Shown: positions 12,389 to 36,540 of the stretch, piece by piece | Numbering within the stretch: the first letter of the stretch is position 1 | Layout: each line of letters starts with the position of its first letter | Source: Runella sp. | GTDB lineage: Bacteria > Bacteroidota > Bacteroidia > Cytophagales > Spirosomataceae | DNA length: 36,990 nucleotides | Reading direction: 5' to 3' | Assembly: GCA_023254175.1 (NCBI GenBank) | Contig: JALQYJ010000139.1 | Span: 1 to 36,990 of the forward strand | The notes under the pieces: generated by a model | Databases searched by the model: none | Seen by the model: only the letters and a program-made list of their open reading frames with translations | Told to the model about the DNA's origin: nothing | Position numbers and translations under genes: made by a program

Positions 12389-12586
12389 ATGAAACCTGTG
12401 CATATTCATTATCAATTCAACTTAATTTACTCTGACCCCGACGACACCAAATTTGTTGACTGTACCATCGCATCAAATGCAGATTATCTAGTCTCTAACG
12501 ATAAGCATTTGAATATTCTAAAAAAGATTCCATTTCCGAAAATAATATTGTATTTAAAAAGCTTTTTGCTTTTCGAACATAAGTAA
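12389..12586 (+). pseudogene. Truncated PIN-domain toxin, C-terminal part only
   Basis: The 65-codon frame encodes YQFNLIYSDPDDTKFVDCTI then ASNADYLVSNDKHL, the conserved second half of PIN-family toxins (putative toxin component, about 135-140 residues). It carries the late acidic residues of the active site. The first 75-85 residues, including the early VxDTN acidic motif, are absent, so the nuclease cannot be functional. The preceding antitoxin frame is open, consistent with a module inactivated by an internal deletion. Confidence 0.75.
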
Positions 12587-12621: not shown

Positions 12622-15600
12622 ATGCAACAACCACCTATCCAAGAAATACTCAAATCGCGAATCCTTGTGCTTGATGGCGCGATGGGTTCGATGATTCAGC
12701 GTTATAAATTGACGGATGCCGATTACCGTGGCGAACGTTTCAAAGATTTCCCACACGAGGTCAAAGGCAACAACGATTTGTTGTCGTTGACCCGCCCCGA
12801 CATTATCAGCGAAATCCACGAGGCTTACCTCGAAGCAGGTGCCGACATCATCGAAACCAATACCTTCAGTGGGACGACCATCGCCATGGCCGACTATCAC
12901 ATGGAAGACTTGGTGTATGAGCTAAATTACGAATCGGCCCGTTTGGCACGGGAAGCTTGTGATAAATACACAGCCATGAATCCGGATAAGCCTCGTTTTG
13001 TGGCAGGTTCCATTGGCCCCACCAACCGTACGGCCTCGCTCTCTCCCGATGTCAATGACCCTGGTTATCGTGCTGTAACGTTTGATGACTTAGTGAATGC
13101 CTACTACGAACAAGTTCAAGCTCTTGCCGACGGAGGTTCTGATATCTTTTTGGTCGAAACCATTTTTGATACACTCAATGCTAAAGCAGCACTTTATGCG
13201 ATTGATTTGTTTATAAACCAAAAGCCCCCCGCTCCCCAATGGGGGGAGAATCGTTGTGATAGGAATAAGTTTCCAATCATAGATGGTTTAGTTTGGAAAT
13301 ATATTAACTCCCCTGGGTCTGCCAAAGCGGGTCGAGGGGTCGCTCCTATCATGGTATCAGGTACGATTACGGATGCTTCGGGAAGAACCTTGTCGGGACA
13401 AACGACGGAAGCGTTTTTGACGTCGGTTTCGCACATGCCTTTGCTTTCGATTGGGCTCAACTGTGCGTTAGGAGCCGATTTGATGCGTCCGTATGTACAA
13501 ACTTTGGCCAACCAAGCTCCTTTCTTTACTTCGGCTCACCCCAACGCAGGTTTGCCCAACGAAATGGGCGAATACGACCAATCACCTGCCGAAATGGCAA
13601 AGATTATCGAAGGATTTTTGAAAGATAATTTTATTAATATCATTGGAGGATGCTGCGGAACAACGCCACCGCACATCAAGGCCATTGCTGAAGTTGCCGC
13701 CAAATATGCCCCCCGAGATTTACCCGAAAACGATCATGTTCAGAAACTTTCAGGGCTTGAACCCCTCAAAATCACGAAAGAAACCAATTTCGTAAACATC
13801 GGCGAGCGTTGTAACGTAACAGGCTCTAAGAAATTTGCTCGCTTGGTTCGTGAAAGCAAGTACGATGAAGCTATCTCAGTAGCTCGAGAACAAGTCGAAA
13901 CAGGCGCTCAAGTCCTTGACATCAACATGGACGAAGGGATGATTGACGGCGTGCAAGCCATGACCAAATTCTGCAACTTGCTCATGGCCGAACCCGACAT
14001 TGCCCGCGTTCCTTTCATGGTGGATTCGTCCAAATGGGAAGTGATTGAGGCAGGTTTGAAATGTTTACAAGGCAAAGCGATTGTAAACTCTATTTCGTTG
14101 AAAGAAGGCGAAGAGAAGTTTATCGAACAAGCTGAAAAAGTAAAGCGCTACGGGGCTTCGGTAGTGGTAATGGCCTTTGATGAAGTAGGCCAAGCCGACA
14201 ATTACGAGCGTCGTATCGAAATCTGCGAGCGGGCGTATTGGATTTTAGTCAACAAAGTAGGTTTTCCTCCACAAGACATTATTTTCGACCCCAACATCCT
14301 TACGGTGGGTACAGGAATCGAAGAACATAATAACTACGCCGTTGATTTTATCAACGCAACTCGCTGGATAAAAGAACACTTACCGTACGCCAAAGTGAGT
14401 GGTGGGGTTTCCAACGTTTCGTTTTCATTCCGTGGCAATGAACCCGTTCGGGAAGCCATTCACACCGTTTTCTTGTACCATGCCATCAAGGCTGGTATGG
14501 ACATGGGGATTGTGAACGCAGGTCAGTTGGGAGTTTATGACGACCTACCTAAAGACATGTTGGAGCACTGCGAAGACCTAATTCTTAACCGCCGCCCTGA
14601 CGCAACGGAACGCATGTTGGCTTTTGCCGAAACCGTAAAATCGAAAGGAAAAGAAGTAGTAGTAGATAATGCTTGGCGCGACCAACCCGTTTCAAAACGT
14701 TTGGAACACGCTCTTATCAAAGGGCTTACTGAATACATCGACGAAGATGTGGAAGAAGCGCGTCAGCAGTCTAGTCGCCCGTTAGATGTGATTGAAGGCC
14801 CTTTGATGGACGGCATGAATGTCGTAGGCGACCTATTTGGGGAAGGGAAAATGTTCCTTCCACAAGTGGTAAAATCGGCTCGAGTAATGAAAAAAGCCGT
14901 GGCGTACTTGACTCCTTACATCGAAGCTGAAAAGGCAGGTGGTGCGGCAGCAGCTGGAAAAATTTTGATGGCAACAGTGAAGGGTGACGTCCACGATATT
15001 GGAAAAAATATTGTGGGTGTAGTACTTGGCTGTAATAACTACGAAATCATCGACCTTGGAGTGATGGTACCGACCGATAAGATTTTAGCGGCCGCCCGAG
15101 AACATAGCGTTGACATTATCGGCCTATCGGGTTTGATTACACCTTCCTTGGACGAAATGGTAGGTGTTGCCAAAGAAATGGAACGCCAAGGTTTTACCAT
15201 TCCGTTGTTAATTGGGGGTGCGACCACCTCACGTATTCACACGGCAGTGAAAATTGACCCGCACTATTCAGGGCCTGTTATTCACGTGTTGGACGCAAGT
15301 CGTGCGGTGCCAGTAGCTGGCAAGTTGACGCAAAACGAAAAAATCTACGCTGATACTTTAGCCGACATCAAGAAAGAATACACCAAACTTCGCGAAGACC
15401 ACGCTAAGCGCCAACAAGCAAAAGAAGCCTTGTCGATTGCGGCCGCAAGAGCCAATAAAACCAAAATTGATTGGGCAGGGTTTGAACCAGTGAAACCAAA
15501 ATTCCTGGGCAATAAGTACTTCTACGATTATCCGTTGGAAGAGATTGCAAAGTACATTGACTGGACGCCATTTTTCCAAACGTGGCAATTACACGGAAAA

Positions 15601-16479
15601 TATCCAACGATATTTAACGATGCCACCGTCGGAACTGAAGCGAAAAAACTGTACGAGGATGCCAATGCCATGTTGGCCAACATCATCAAAAATAAATCCC
15701 TCAAAGCCAATGCCGTCATTGGTTTTTATCCTGCCAATTCGGTGGGAGATGACATCGTTTTGCACGAATTTGAAGAGGCTGAAGTAAGTTTTGCAGGCCA
15801 AGGACAAGCAAAACGGAATGAATACCGAGTAGTAACTACCGAAAATGGCCTGGCAACTGAGCAACTTACAACGCTTCATCATTTACGTCAGCAAAATCAA
15901 AAAGCGGCCAATTTGCCAAACCTCTGTCTAAGTGATTTTATAGCACCCACAAGTGTAAACAAAACGGACTATATCGGAGCTTTTGCCGTAACGACTGGAA
16001 TTGGAATTGAGGCATTGTTGGAAAAATACGAAGCCGACCACGACGACTATAACAGCATTATGCTCAAGGCCATCGCCGACCGTTTGGCCGAAGCCTTCAC
16101 GGAATTGATGCACGAACGCGTTCGGAAAACGTTTTGGGGATATGCTTCGGATGAATCGTTGAGCAACGAAGAATTAATTGCCGAAAAATACCAAGGAATT
16201 CGGCCAGCACCAGGATACCCTGCCTGCCCCGACCATACCGAGAAGCGCACGATGTTTGATTTATTGGATGCGGAAGCACAAGTAGGTATTCATTTAACTG
16301 AAAGCTTTGCCATGTACCCTGCGAGTTCGGTCAGTGGCTGGTACTTTGCGCATCCCGACAGTAAATATTTTGCCCTCGGAAAAATCGCCAAAGACCAAGT
16401 AGAAGACTATTCCAGCCGCAAGGAAATGCCACTTGATGTGACTGAAAAATGGCTAGCGCCAGTGTTAAATTACGATTAG
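12622..16479 (+). CDS. metH: Cobalamin-dependent methionine synthase with an extra in-frame segment
   Basis: This 1285-residue enzyme transfers a methyl group from 5-methyltetrahydrofolate to homocysteine through B12. Domain order is complete. The homocysteine domain has zinc ligands C281, C344 and C345. The pterin-binding domain begins near [16 protein letters not shown], and the B12 cap and Rossmann domains carry DVHDIGKN with the cobalt ligand H791. The activation domain closes with [20 protein letters not shown]. In E. coli the equivalent residues are C247, C310, C311 and H759, so everything after about residue 199 is shifted by 32-34 positions. The shift comes from an insertion at 13221-13344. 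The rest of the frame is intact. No cobalamin or SAM riboswitch is seen upstream. A rho-independent terminator follows. Confidence 0.97.
13221..13344. repeat. GC-rich palindromic repeat element inserted in frame in metH
   Basis: The segment lies between AIDLFINQ and APIMVSGT, where other MetH proteins have only a short linker. It contains three nested palindromes: CTCCCC (13232-13237) with GGGGAG (13243-13248); TTTCCAA (13270-13276) with TTGGAAA (13293-13299); and CCCC (13310-13313) with GGGG (13336-13339). The outer ends are imperfect inverted repeats, AGCCCCCC at 13223-13230 against the complement of GGGGTCGCT at 13336-13344. Its composition (runs of C and G around an AT-rich centre) is unlike the surrounding gene. 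It adds about 41 codons with no stop. No second copy is in this window. Confidence 0.75.
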
Positions 16480-21202: not shown

Positions 21203-21628
21203 ATGAGTAAGTCCCTTCTTATAGTTTTAGCATTCGTTGGTTTGATAAATACCTCGCTTGGACAATCCAAATCATCTACCCAAACGGTACAAAAATTTTA
21301 TAAATGGTACACCACGAGGGGAGTCATGCTTGAATGGCGTCAGGTGCTTAAGCGACCCGAGTTTAGTCCTGCTTTAAAAAAAAGACTGACCGTATTTTAC
21401 CAGAAAATGGAGAAAGATAACGAAGGAGGCTACGACCCTATCGTTCAGGCACAAGATTTTGATGACCAATTTAAAATCAAGCCAATATCCAATACGGCTA
21501 CCAAAGCAACCTTTGAGTTATGGATGTTTGGCGAAAAAGCCGCAACAGTCACACTCAACAATATAGCAAATCAATGGCTGATTGATGATATAAAAGGGGT
21601 ACTAGAAATCAAGACGGATAAAATCTGA
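21203..21628 (+). CDS. Small exported protein, DUF3828-like
   Basis: ATG 21203 gives 141 residues with a signal peptide (MSKSLLIVLAFVGLINTSLGQS); the frame could start at 21164, but that would overlap the previous gene and precede the signal. The QTVQKFYKWYTTRG beginning and the late WLIDDIKG resemble small secreted DUF3828/NTF2-like proteins. Function unknown. Its TGA stop lies in the loop of a long hairpin. Confidence 0.8.
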   Translation: MSKSLLIVLAFVGLINTSLGQSKSSTQTVQKFYKWYTTRGVMLEWRQVLKRPEFSPALKKRLTVFYQKMEKDNEGGYDPIVQAQDFDDQFKIKPISNTATKATFELWMFGEKAATVTLNNIANQWLIDDIKGVLEIKTDKI

Positions 21629-21653
21629 GATTTTACCCGTTTTGATTTCTAGT
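21601..21653. terminator. 25-bp hairpin with the TGA stop codon in its loop
   Basis: Arms 21601-21625 and 21629-21653 are inverted repeats with only two differences, both tolerated as G-U pairs in RNA of the plus strand. The three-base loop is the TGA stop codon of the plus-strand gene. The minus-strand arsenic gene ends two bases beyond. It most likely stops transcription from both sides. Confidence 0.8.
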
Positions 21654-21654
21654 A

Positions 21655-22998
21655 CTAGCAACATCCCGAATTGGGCGTACAGCAAGACGACACTTGATCT
21701 AATTCTATAAGTTTTATTTTGGGTTTTTCGACCAATTTCTTCATTACCGTCGCTGAACTTGGACATAGATTACTAAACTGCTGCAATTGTGCAATTTCAA
21801 CAGGGACAGATTCTCTTTCGACTTTTTCAAAACCTTGTTTAGCAAAATATCCTTCAGCCGTTGTTGTGATTAAATACAACTCTTTTACCCACTGTAAACG
21901 CATTTGTTTGGTTAAGTCATTGACCAAACGTTTCGCAATTTTATAGTTCCGAAACGACTCTTTAACTGCTACCGAACGTAAGAGTCCTACTTCACCAGTT
22001 ACCTCCACTCCTGCTGTACCTACCAACTGACCATCAGCAAAAGCAAGTAAAAAATTGGAAAGTTCTGGATTCAAATCTGCCGTTGGCAAACCTACCGATT
22101 CTAGCAATTCCGCAACTGCATCTTTATCTGTTGGTTTAGCGCTACGGATTTCGATTTCGGCAGCAGCGGGCGATGGTTTATCGGCATAAACTGTAATGCT
22201 GTAAATTCCCAAATTTCCTTTACGGTACGACTCGATTTCTTCAACGGAAATATATTCAGCCAAAATCGAATCGGGAAGTACAATTTCTCGGTCTTTCTGA
22301 AGTGTTATGTTGACAAACCCAGTTTTTTCAATCAATCCCAAATAGTCTGATTTTTGAATTGCCCCCGACACACAACCTGCGTACATTTCGGCGGCGTGTT
22401 GCAAGCCCACAGGCAGTTCTCCTTCCAACACAATGTCAGAAATACTAAAATGCCCGCCAGGTTTCAAGGTGCGGTAGATTTCCTTGAACACATTGGCTTT
22501 GTTCGGCACTAAATTCAATACACAATTACTCACAATCACATCGGCGATGTTATCACTTACAGGCATCGCTTCGATATCTCCCTGACGAAACTCCACGTTA
22601 TTGAACCCCAATTTTTCAGCGTTTACCCTTGCTTTAATAATCATGGCTTCGGTGAAGTCCACACCAATAATCTTACCCGTACTGCCCGTTGCAGCCCGCG
22701 CTACAAACGCATCGTTGCCCGCACCACTTCCCAAATCAATCACTGTATCTCCCTCATTGATTTGAGCAAATTGAGTTGGCAGTCCACATCCTAAACCGAG
22801 GTCGGCATCAGCTACGTAGCCGCTCATTTTTGTGTAATCTTCCGCCATAATTCCTAAAAACTCTCCGTCAGTTTCACAGCTTGGGCCGCAGCCACAGCAA
22901 GAGGCTGCATTGAAATCCTTCGATTGATTTGCTACCTCGGTGTATTTTTCACGCACGAGGTTTTTGAGCGATTCGTCAGTTGTCATTGTATTATTCAT
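21655..22998 (-). CDS. arsM: Arsenite methyltransferase fused to ArsN2 acetyltransferase
   Basis: The 447-residue protein starts at ATG 22998 (ATG 22986 is a second option). Residues 1-275 are ArsM: a CCGCGPSC cysteine cluster (34-41), the SAM-binding loop DLGSGAGND (88-96), and three cysteines at the arsenic-binding positions, C71 (GLGCGLP), C159 (SNCVLNL) and C209 (YAGCVSG). Residues 281-425 are a GNAT domain of the ArsN2 type (VGLPTADLNP, LLRSVAVKESFRNYKIA, FSNLCPSSATVM). The chain ends with a thiol-rich tail, SSCCTPNSGCC. ArsM methylates As(III) with SAM. ArsN-type proteins acetylate some organoarsenicals, while the ArsN2 substrate is unclear. It follows arsR by 42 bases. Confidence 0.93.
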   Translation of the reverse strand: MNNTMTTDESLKNLVREKYTEVANQSKDFNAASCCGCGPSCETDGEFLGIMAEDYTKMSGYVADADLGLGCGLPTQFAQINEGDTVIDLGSGAGNDAFVARAATGSTGKIIGVDFTEAMIIKARVNAEKLGFNNVEFRQGDIEAMPVSDNIADVIVSNCVLNLVPNKANVFKEIYRTLKPGGHFSISDIVLEGELPVGLQHAAEMYAGCVSGAIQKSDYLGLIEKTGFVNITLQKDREIVLPDSILAEYISVEEIESYRKGNLGIYSITVYADKPSPAAAEIEIRSAKPTDKDAVAELLESVGLPTADLNPELSNFLLAFADGQLVGTAGVEVTGEVGLLRSVAVKESFRNYKIAKRLVNDLTKQMRLQWVKELYLITTTAEGYFAKQGFEKVERESVPVEIAQLQQFSNLCPSSATVMKKLVEKPKIKLIELDQVSSCCTPNSGCC

Positions 22999-25897: not shown

Positions 25898-25937
25898 AAA
25901 AAGAGAAAGACGCCCGAACGGGCGTCTTTCTCTTTTT
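25898..25937. terminator. Bidirectional terminator between terC-like gene and elbB remnant
   Basis: A 19-bp perfect stem: the right arm is CGGGCGTCTTTCTCTTTTT and the loop is AA. A and T tracts at the two ends let it terminate transcription from both sides. Confidence 0.95.
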
Positions 25938-29818: not shown

Positions 29819-29821
29819 TTC

Positions 29822-29894
29822 TTTGTCACTCCGACGATAGAAGGAGTCTATACTCGATTGGGATGTAGGCTCTTCCTGTTGTCGGAGTGACAAA
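29822..29894. repeat. 73-bp palindromic element between convergent genes
   Basis: The 14-base ends TTTGTCACTCCGAC (29822-29835) and GTCGGAGTGACAAA (29881-29894) are perfect inverted repeats. Inner parts, AGAAGGAG and CTCTTCCT, continue the symmetry loosely. It looks like a dispersed MITE/REP-type repeat and could work as a two-way terminator between the TPR and GH13 genes. No second copy is in the window. Confidence 0.8.
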
Positions 29895-29899
29895 CAAAT

Positions 29900-36474: not shown

Positions 36475-36490
36475 TTGATTGTATCAATAA

Positions 36491-36520
36491 AAAAAAGAGA
36501 GGCTAAAGCCTCTCTTTTTT
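36491..36520. terminator. Bidirectional terminator between rsgA and the susD-like gene
   Basis: AAAAAAGAGAGGC pairs with GCCTCTCTTTTTT around a TAAA loop, with more T after it. Suited to stop transcription from both converging genes. Confidence 0.95.
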
Positions 36521-36540
36521 TTATTATGGTTGTTAGAAAA

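Follow-up and report, generated by a model that had tools for sequence, protein, structure and literature searches.

In-frame palindromic insert in the metH gene of Runella sp. and its proposed relation to DUF559-bearing elements of Bacteroidota

A segment with palindromic ends lies within the gene for cobalamin-dependent methionine synthase in the window, that is, the whole 36,990-nt stretch of Runella sp. DNA analysed here (contig JALQYJ010000139.1). The locus raises the question whether this segment is a mobile repeat kept as part of a protein or a loop peculiar to the lineage. Below, the genome carrying the window is called the own genome; G numbers denote relatives' genomes, and L and C numbers denote loci and copies.

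Anatomy of the insert and of the MetH loop

The host gene metH (12622-16479, plus strand) forms a single open frame of 1285 codons (1285 aa) and is intact: S-methyl_trans, Pterin_bind, B12-binding_2, B12-binding and Met_synt_B12, all five, were found in its product by Pfam search, and the ligands C281 and H791 are at the positions given in the initial annotation. The in-frame palindromic insert claimed there was likewise confirmed. It is a palindrome-flanked element, a REP-like doublet, at 13224-13340 on the plus strand (117 nt, 39 codons, within residues 201-240), located in a loop of the homocysteine domain. Its bounds were set by comparison with the closest relative, G010, whose MetH is 97% identical at the protein level. 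The end of an ORF at about 12400-12585, just upstream of metH, may belong to a PIN-domain protein, judging from its motif.

The element consists of a 5' arm, GCCCCCCGCTCCCCAATGGGGGGAG (13224-13248, plus strand, 25 nt), named class A here, for which the common form in the family is GCCCCCTAACCCCCAATGGGGG; an AT-rich interior (13249-13306, plus strand, 58 nt) that forms a separate hairpin when folded as RNA; and an inverted, eroded 3' arm (13307-13340, minus strand), of which G010 holds the intact form CTCCCCCGTTGGGGGGCGGGGGGC. A GC-rich element of about 124 bases with three nested palindromes had been described. The element itself is present at a length of 117 nt, GC-richness is confined to the arms (80% and 68%, with 28% in the interior), and RNA folding gave three successive hairpins, side by side and not nested (-46.3 kcal/mol, z -2.8; 2 of 200 shuffles equally good). 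When folded as DNA, z was -1.8 and 10 of 200 shuffles were equally good. The imperfect inverted ends are real: in the 108-nt G010 counterpart, which starts GCCCCCCGCCCCCCAATGGGGGGA, the two 24-nt ends agree at 21 of 24 positions. The 5' arm pattern (25 nt, up to 3 mismatches) occurred once in the window and not at all in 100 shuffles of it. A second copy of the 58-nt interior was sought in the own genome, and none was found. Inside the element, TGATAGGA at 13257-13264 is the exact inverse of the host sequence TCCTATCA at 13344-13351 just downstream, which may be chance. Close inverted repeats with long arms are also present in the window at 21599-21655, 25898-25937, 29819-29897 and 36486-36525; these are perhaps terminators.

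For the structural check on a surface loop, a predicted structure of MetH was used (mean pLDDT 85; best PDB match human MetH, 9SSP). In the model, helix 184-198 precedes and strand 243-249 follows the extra loop of the homocysteine domain encoded by codons 201-240 (13222-13341, plus strand). Only residues 206-238 fall below pLDDT 50, and the loop is predicted to be disordered. The segment 205-240, about 36 residues, is missing from human MetH.

Most other MetH proteins do have a short loop at this place, as had been stated. Loop length was measurable in 76 of 80 metH loci: 61 loops had 19 residues, 9 had 20-26 and 6 had 34-63, the last group coming entirely from Arcicella, Spirosoma, Dyadobacter or Flammeovirga. 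A hand count on the same basis gives 55 residues for the window's loop. Judged from these sequences, the MetH loop is usually of fixed length and is variable in Cytophagales. Other repeat-like insertions were seen at the same loop, namely short-repeat peptides in L033 and in Arcicella (L298) and a different palindrome in L022. Class A arms were also seen at a third place in MetH, nearer the C-terminal end, in G018 (L112, frame residue 1299) and G019 (L113, frame residue 1457).

Among 12 genomes of the genus, the element is present in metH of two, the own genome and G010, and absent from ten, of which nine carry an unrelated loop of about 38 residues (L011-L019) and G007 carries a short one (L026). 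The own and G010 inserts are 92.5% identical over aligned bases, and their flanks (600 nt each side) 93.7% and 88.0%. Because the insert has diverged about as much as its flanks, the two genomes most likely received it from a shared ancestor. An assembly artefact is unlikely, since G010, a separate genome, holds the same insert. The insertion point at metH is unreadable because the loop of the sister species is itself long and different, which leaves no clean empty site. Of the two marks of a MITE derived from an insertion sequence, inverted ends are present, and no target-site duplication is definable, because the element-free loops differ in sequence.

Class A repeats in other conserved genes

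For the family search, the pattern GCCCCYNNNCCCCNAWGGGGR was used with up to 1 mismatch, and the reversed pattern served as control. With overlapping matches partly counted twice, the own genome gave 40 matches (21 + 19) and G010 gave 155 (76 + 79), with 0 for the control. Thus the proposal of a mobile repeat rather than a lineage loop has held up: neither do all relatives carry the segment in metH, nor is the arm confined to that gene. Class A matches were found in 14 of 18 genomes, very unevenly (G010 155, G007 132, G018 93, G004 84, own 40), and over all 18 the control was 0 except for 1 match in G012. The arms often stand in inverted pairs, about 30-105 nt apart.

The 40 matches of the own genome were merged by hand into 29 arms at 24 sites, of which 9 lie in frame within genes, 1 at the 3' end of hisD and 11 between genes or before a start codon, and 3 were set aside; only open frames were considered in this sorting, so that gene-destroying copies would be scored as intergenic. 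The in-gene hosts are IcmF (two places), LigA, GcvP, a CusA/CzcA pump, a PQQ-type protein, a peptidase, an SDR protein and an acyl-CoA dehydrogenase. NCBIfam gave the names IcmF, LigA, GcvP, CusA/CzcA and HisD, and named the SDR protein and the acyl-CoA dehydrogenase at family level only; PQQ-type protein and peptidase, which had no NCBIfam match, are what we take the remaining two hosts to be.

In protein alignments with two to six relatives, the in-gene sites hold repeat-encoded peptides such as SPLTPNGG, PPLGVGG and SPIGGAG, and at 8 of the 9 sites of the own genome a relative was found to be free of the repeat. The LigA repeat is present in the own genome only, of 7 compared, and the GcvP repeat in the own genome, G010, G004 and G007 and not in G001, G006 or G011. 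For acyl-CoA dehydrogenase, both orthologues compared hold similar peptides and no empty site was seen. Altogether 14 segments were compared, with FADox and MoxR (C176, ambiguous) left out of the insert count; the FADox copy (C108) was rejected as an insert, its length being equal in the three relatives compared.

One shared reading frame is used by 11 of 18 sense arms in genes. Four sense arms use the frame in which the usual arm has a TAA/TAG stop, and these are variants without that stop, as expected if open frames have been selected. In G010, a 1148-aa frame with four in-frame class A arms was seen at L114 (C1:286000-291000).

DUF559 nuclease genes inside host frames

In G010, a 626-aa open frame joins two 3-oxoacid CoA-transferase subunits via an arm, a DUF559 domain and a second arm. 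A search of 18 genomes for PF04480 (DUF559) gave 23 matches, 18 strong and 5 weak, and frames of at least 300 aa held 10 of the 18 strong matches (14 of 23 counting the weak). The 10 strong long frames span 620-1645 aa and comprise MetH (three inserts in two genomes), UvrA (2), MnmE (3) and CoA-transferase (2). One DUF559 insert of G019 MetH sits in the same loop as the insert of the window. In the same 18 genomes, with matches that are not independent, frames of at least 300 aa held 2 of 72 PF01797 (RAYT) matches and 0 of 65 PF05635 genes; PF05635 (four-helix) genes, with a longest frame of 202 aa, were rejected as in-frame cargo. Among the matches listed, DUF559 was in frames of at least 300 aa for 58 of 150 in Cytophagales (291 genomes) and 42 of 150 in a phylum sample (296 genomes); the two samples overlap, and some of these long frames may be ordinary fusions.

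Hosts named by NCBIfam or Pfam were LeuRS (two sites), MetH (two sites), MnmE, UvrA, HsdR, the linker of CoA-transferase and, with DUF559 as a C-terminal extension, PurQ; in the 18 genomes, one or two frames per host were named in this way and the remaining frames by likeness. The long frames L385, L386 and L388 received no NCBIfam name at the threshold used. In the HsdR (type I restriction) frames L392 and L394 of the phylum sample, DUF559 adjoins palindrome-like peptides. Two further frames with DUF559, of 1385 aa (G112:C74) and 1542 aa (G118:C133), gave weak LeuRS-type matches and are probably IleRS or ValRS.

For detailed analysis, a set of 45 DUF559 loci was used, 26 in frames of at least 300 aa and 19 in shorter ones, a few contig-end or weak loci being left out. 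The 26 long-frame copies comprise 19 flanked on either side by host sequence within a single open frame, 6 C-terminal extensions of the PurQ type (NCBIfam was run on L216 only) and 1 broken copy. The latter is L211 (G206:C1:4682779-4683093), a MetH with a DUF559 insert in which the host resumes in another frame, indicating a broken gene or faulty sequence. In each of the 8 tested genomes that carry DUF559 in LeuRS, a single LeuRS exceeded the cut-off, and it was the interrupted copy; this enzyme must therefore either function with its insert or undergo processing. UvrA gives weaker evidence: a further UvrA-like gene (49% identity) is present in both G001 and G004, so that UvrA need not be essential there.

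All 26 long-frame DUF559 copies share E15, Q35, D44, E55, D57 and H61 without exception; these are presumably the catalytic residues. The long-form inserts match PF04480 with the conserved acidic core, and a solved homologue is 3HRL, an endonuclease-like protein (E 1.4e-16). Ka/Ks was 0.005-0.15 in 6 of 13 DUF559 pairs with finite Ks (five embedded, one stand-alone), the other 7 being saturated; in the measurable pairs the domain is under purifying selection. In 23 of the 26 long-frame copies and 11 of the 19 short-frame ones, the two flanks matched as inverted copies better than in any of 100 single-base shuffles; detectable inverted ends were absent in the other 3 and 8, respectively. Class A arms flank 5 of the 45 loci, one of which (L232) was recognised on one side only. 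These five copies form one clade (support 98/91) with CoA-transferase, MetH and LeuRS as hosts in four genera.

On the DUF559 tree, host labels change 14 times, with a minimum possible of 8 and 24.7 in shuffles, none of 200 of which was as low. The MnmE, UvrA and CoA-transferase inserts each form a single clade, whereas the PurQ, MetH-linker and second LeuRS-site copies each require no fewer than 2 changes on branches with good support. Since the inserts cluster by host, moves between genes would be only occasional. Short-frame copies stand mostly apart (5 changes vs 14.7 shuffled). Class A counts agree in part with the presence of class A-armed DUF559: G010, G007 and G018 are highest in class A matches, whereas G004 (84) and the own genome (40) are without such a DUF559 and G019 (5) has one. 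In the own genome the PF04480 search gave 0 DUF559 matches, and the copy of the window is without a nuclease. Its interior was considered as a DUF559 remnant, which was not supported, as 43 of 200 shuffled peptides gave DUF559 alignments that were just as good. Phages and plasmids were considered as carriers by a search with the G010 CoA-transferase DUF559; 2 records among 50,697 from phages and 39 among 72,556 from plasmids matched, all at less than 60% identity, which says little either way.

Several loops were found in more than one state. By protein and DNA comparison, the MnmE loop holds palindromes with DUF559 in G010, G007 and G008, a doublet in G006, outer arm heads only in G001 and less clearly in G004, and nothing alike in G011. 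This loop ties the doublet to the long form, in either direction. In one direction, the nuclease would be lost from the long form and the doublet would remain; in the other, a nuclease cassette would dock on arms already present, and equal frames would preserve the frame of the host. The CoA-transferase linker holds DUF559 in G010 and G007. In G001 and G004 a class A doublet at this linker was rejected on DNA comparison, the sequence being a single arm-like stretch of another class. The MetH loop holds DUF559 with other arms in G019, the class A doublet in the own genome and G010, and other sequence elsewhere.

Proposed mechanism, alternatives and meaning

The preferred reading starts from a multi-copy family with open frames, patchy presence, inverted arms, a conserved nuclease core and some mixing of hosts. 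On balance we think it fairly probable that the insert of the window is an old, partly decayed mobile palindromic element in a variable MetH surface loop, with movement driven by DUF559 as the proposed engine. The long forms suggest a nuclease-bearing element retained as an unspliced insert. Arms and DUF559 would together be one mobile unit. The Vsr-like nuclease would be made within the host protein and would need no promoter, ribosome site or splicing of its own. By nicking or cutting DNA at palindromes or target loops, it would allow the element to be copied in by repair, in a homing-like manner, or by recombination between pre-existing arms. Survivors would be stop-free arm variants with a length that is a multiple of three, the host protein working on with a flexible extra loop; the metH repeat would accordingly appear in the protein as an additional surface loop. 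Doublets that lack the nuclease, as in the window, would be passengers or remnants moved in trans. The copy of the window could have had another mobiliser, because the own genome gave no DUF559 match and the interior shows no sign of a DUF559 remnant.

A wider proposal, to which we give somewhat less credence and which is put forward tentatively, is that Bacteroidota harbour, in these inserts, a new class of mobile element. Inverted palindromes and a Vsr-like (DUF559) endonuclease would share one open frame, permanently translated and unspliced in essential proteins; the host-expressed nuclease would drive homing or copying to new loops, and nuclease-less doublets would be mini-forms or docking sites.

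Transposition by a RAYT (Y1 HUH transposase) would account for an ordinary REPIN or REP doublet, with DUF559 as a mere frequent neighbour or passenger of REP-rich loops. REPINs associated with RAYTs consist of two inverted REPs with a short spacer, and an inverted pair with a short spacer is also found here (the 108-nt G010 copy). Inverted doublets of REP size, the presence of Y1_Tnp in 17 of 18 genomes, with one gene in the own genome, and the intragenic REPs already known all speak for such an origin. However, many copies here are in frame inside genes, and the own Y1 locus (L129, about 3.3 kb), the sole Y1 locus covered, is without class A arms. Moreover, G010, the genome richest in class A, has only a weak Y1 match (E 2.9e-5), though over the cut-off, and class A arms track one DUF559 clade. 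This explanation is weakened by G010 and by the own Y1 locus, and we regard it as unlikely.

Retention of DUF559 or of the loop for a function of the host, for example in regulation or repair, with mobility lying far in the past, would agree with the low Ka/Ks in the five embedded pairs, with the same sites being filled in several families (LeuRS, the MetH B12 linker) and with the clustering of host labels on the tree. Presence is nevertheless patchy between close species, and the hosts are unrelated, with three host genes in a single clade, which makes such domestication rather improbable.

Nuclease genes within genes recall introns and inteins, from which the insert would be removed at the RNA or protein level. 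Inteins and the Vsr-like (EDxHD) homing endonucleases of introns likewise combine a nuclease encoded inside a conserved gene with recurring sites and patchy presence. Here, in contrast, inverted palindromes flank the nuclease, the frame is open across arms and nuclease, the copy of the window is without a nuclease, and the insert seems to stay in the protein. An Rfam intron search of the window and 7 loci (8 sources) gave no match, and Pfam scans of 7 proteins gave no intein family and no splicing domain; removal of this kind is therefore very improbable. A lineage-specific loop or slippage product that was never mobile is hardly credible: the loop does vary in Cytophagales (up to 63 residues), the insert is common to two related species and its interior is single-copy, but the arms are multi-copy with a reversed-pattern control of zero, and the same arms stand in unrelated genes.

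Among described repeats, Rickettsia palindromic elements (RPEs) are repeats of roughly 150 bp that have inserted in frame into protein-coding genes unrelated to one another (PMC10969869, PMC2229807). The element here is also palindromic and in frame in unrelated conserved genes; compared with RPEs, which were used here by description only, it differs in its occurrence in Cytophagales, in the GC-rich arms at both ends and in the long form with a nuclease gene. The Rickettsia comparison would thus be apt as an analogy and not as membership. The initial annotation named RPEs as the only well-known parallel; intragenic in-frame REPs are also known in other taxa: in the accessible part of one report (PMC3733652), GTAG/CGTC REPs of Opitutus terrae, R. 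conorii and others occur as singles and dimers inside uvrA, DNA ligase and tRNA synthetase genes, CGTC repeats are reported in Bacteroidetes, and no endonuclease cargo is mentioned for these REPs. The arms studied here differ from them also in having practically none of the tags (of 58 distinct arms taken together with 8 nt on either side, 1 has GTAG and 2 have CGTC). A literature search, with most subscription journals and bioRxiv as such outside its scope, found no description of REP-flanked in-frame DUF559 elements and no paper joining DUF559 with leucyl-tRNA synthetase; of the papers that mention DUF559, none has in-frame inserts as its subject, judged by title and opening of the abstract. 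The novelty of a coding-compatible repeat in Bacteroidota is judged from literature searches; the long form may be a new class, and the metH insert by itself is a variant of in-frame repeats already known.

If the preferred reading is true, protein-coding mobile repeats would extend from Rickettsia and some other genomes to Bacteroidota, with a candidate engine. An unspliced nuclease domain in LeuRS, MnmE, UvrA or MetH would be a new way to keep and express a selfish gene. It would account for odd proline- and glycine-rich peptides and for DUF559 domains in the middle of housekeeping proteins in the phylum, and the inserts would provide a map of insertion-tolerant loops.
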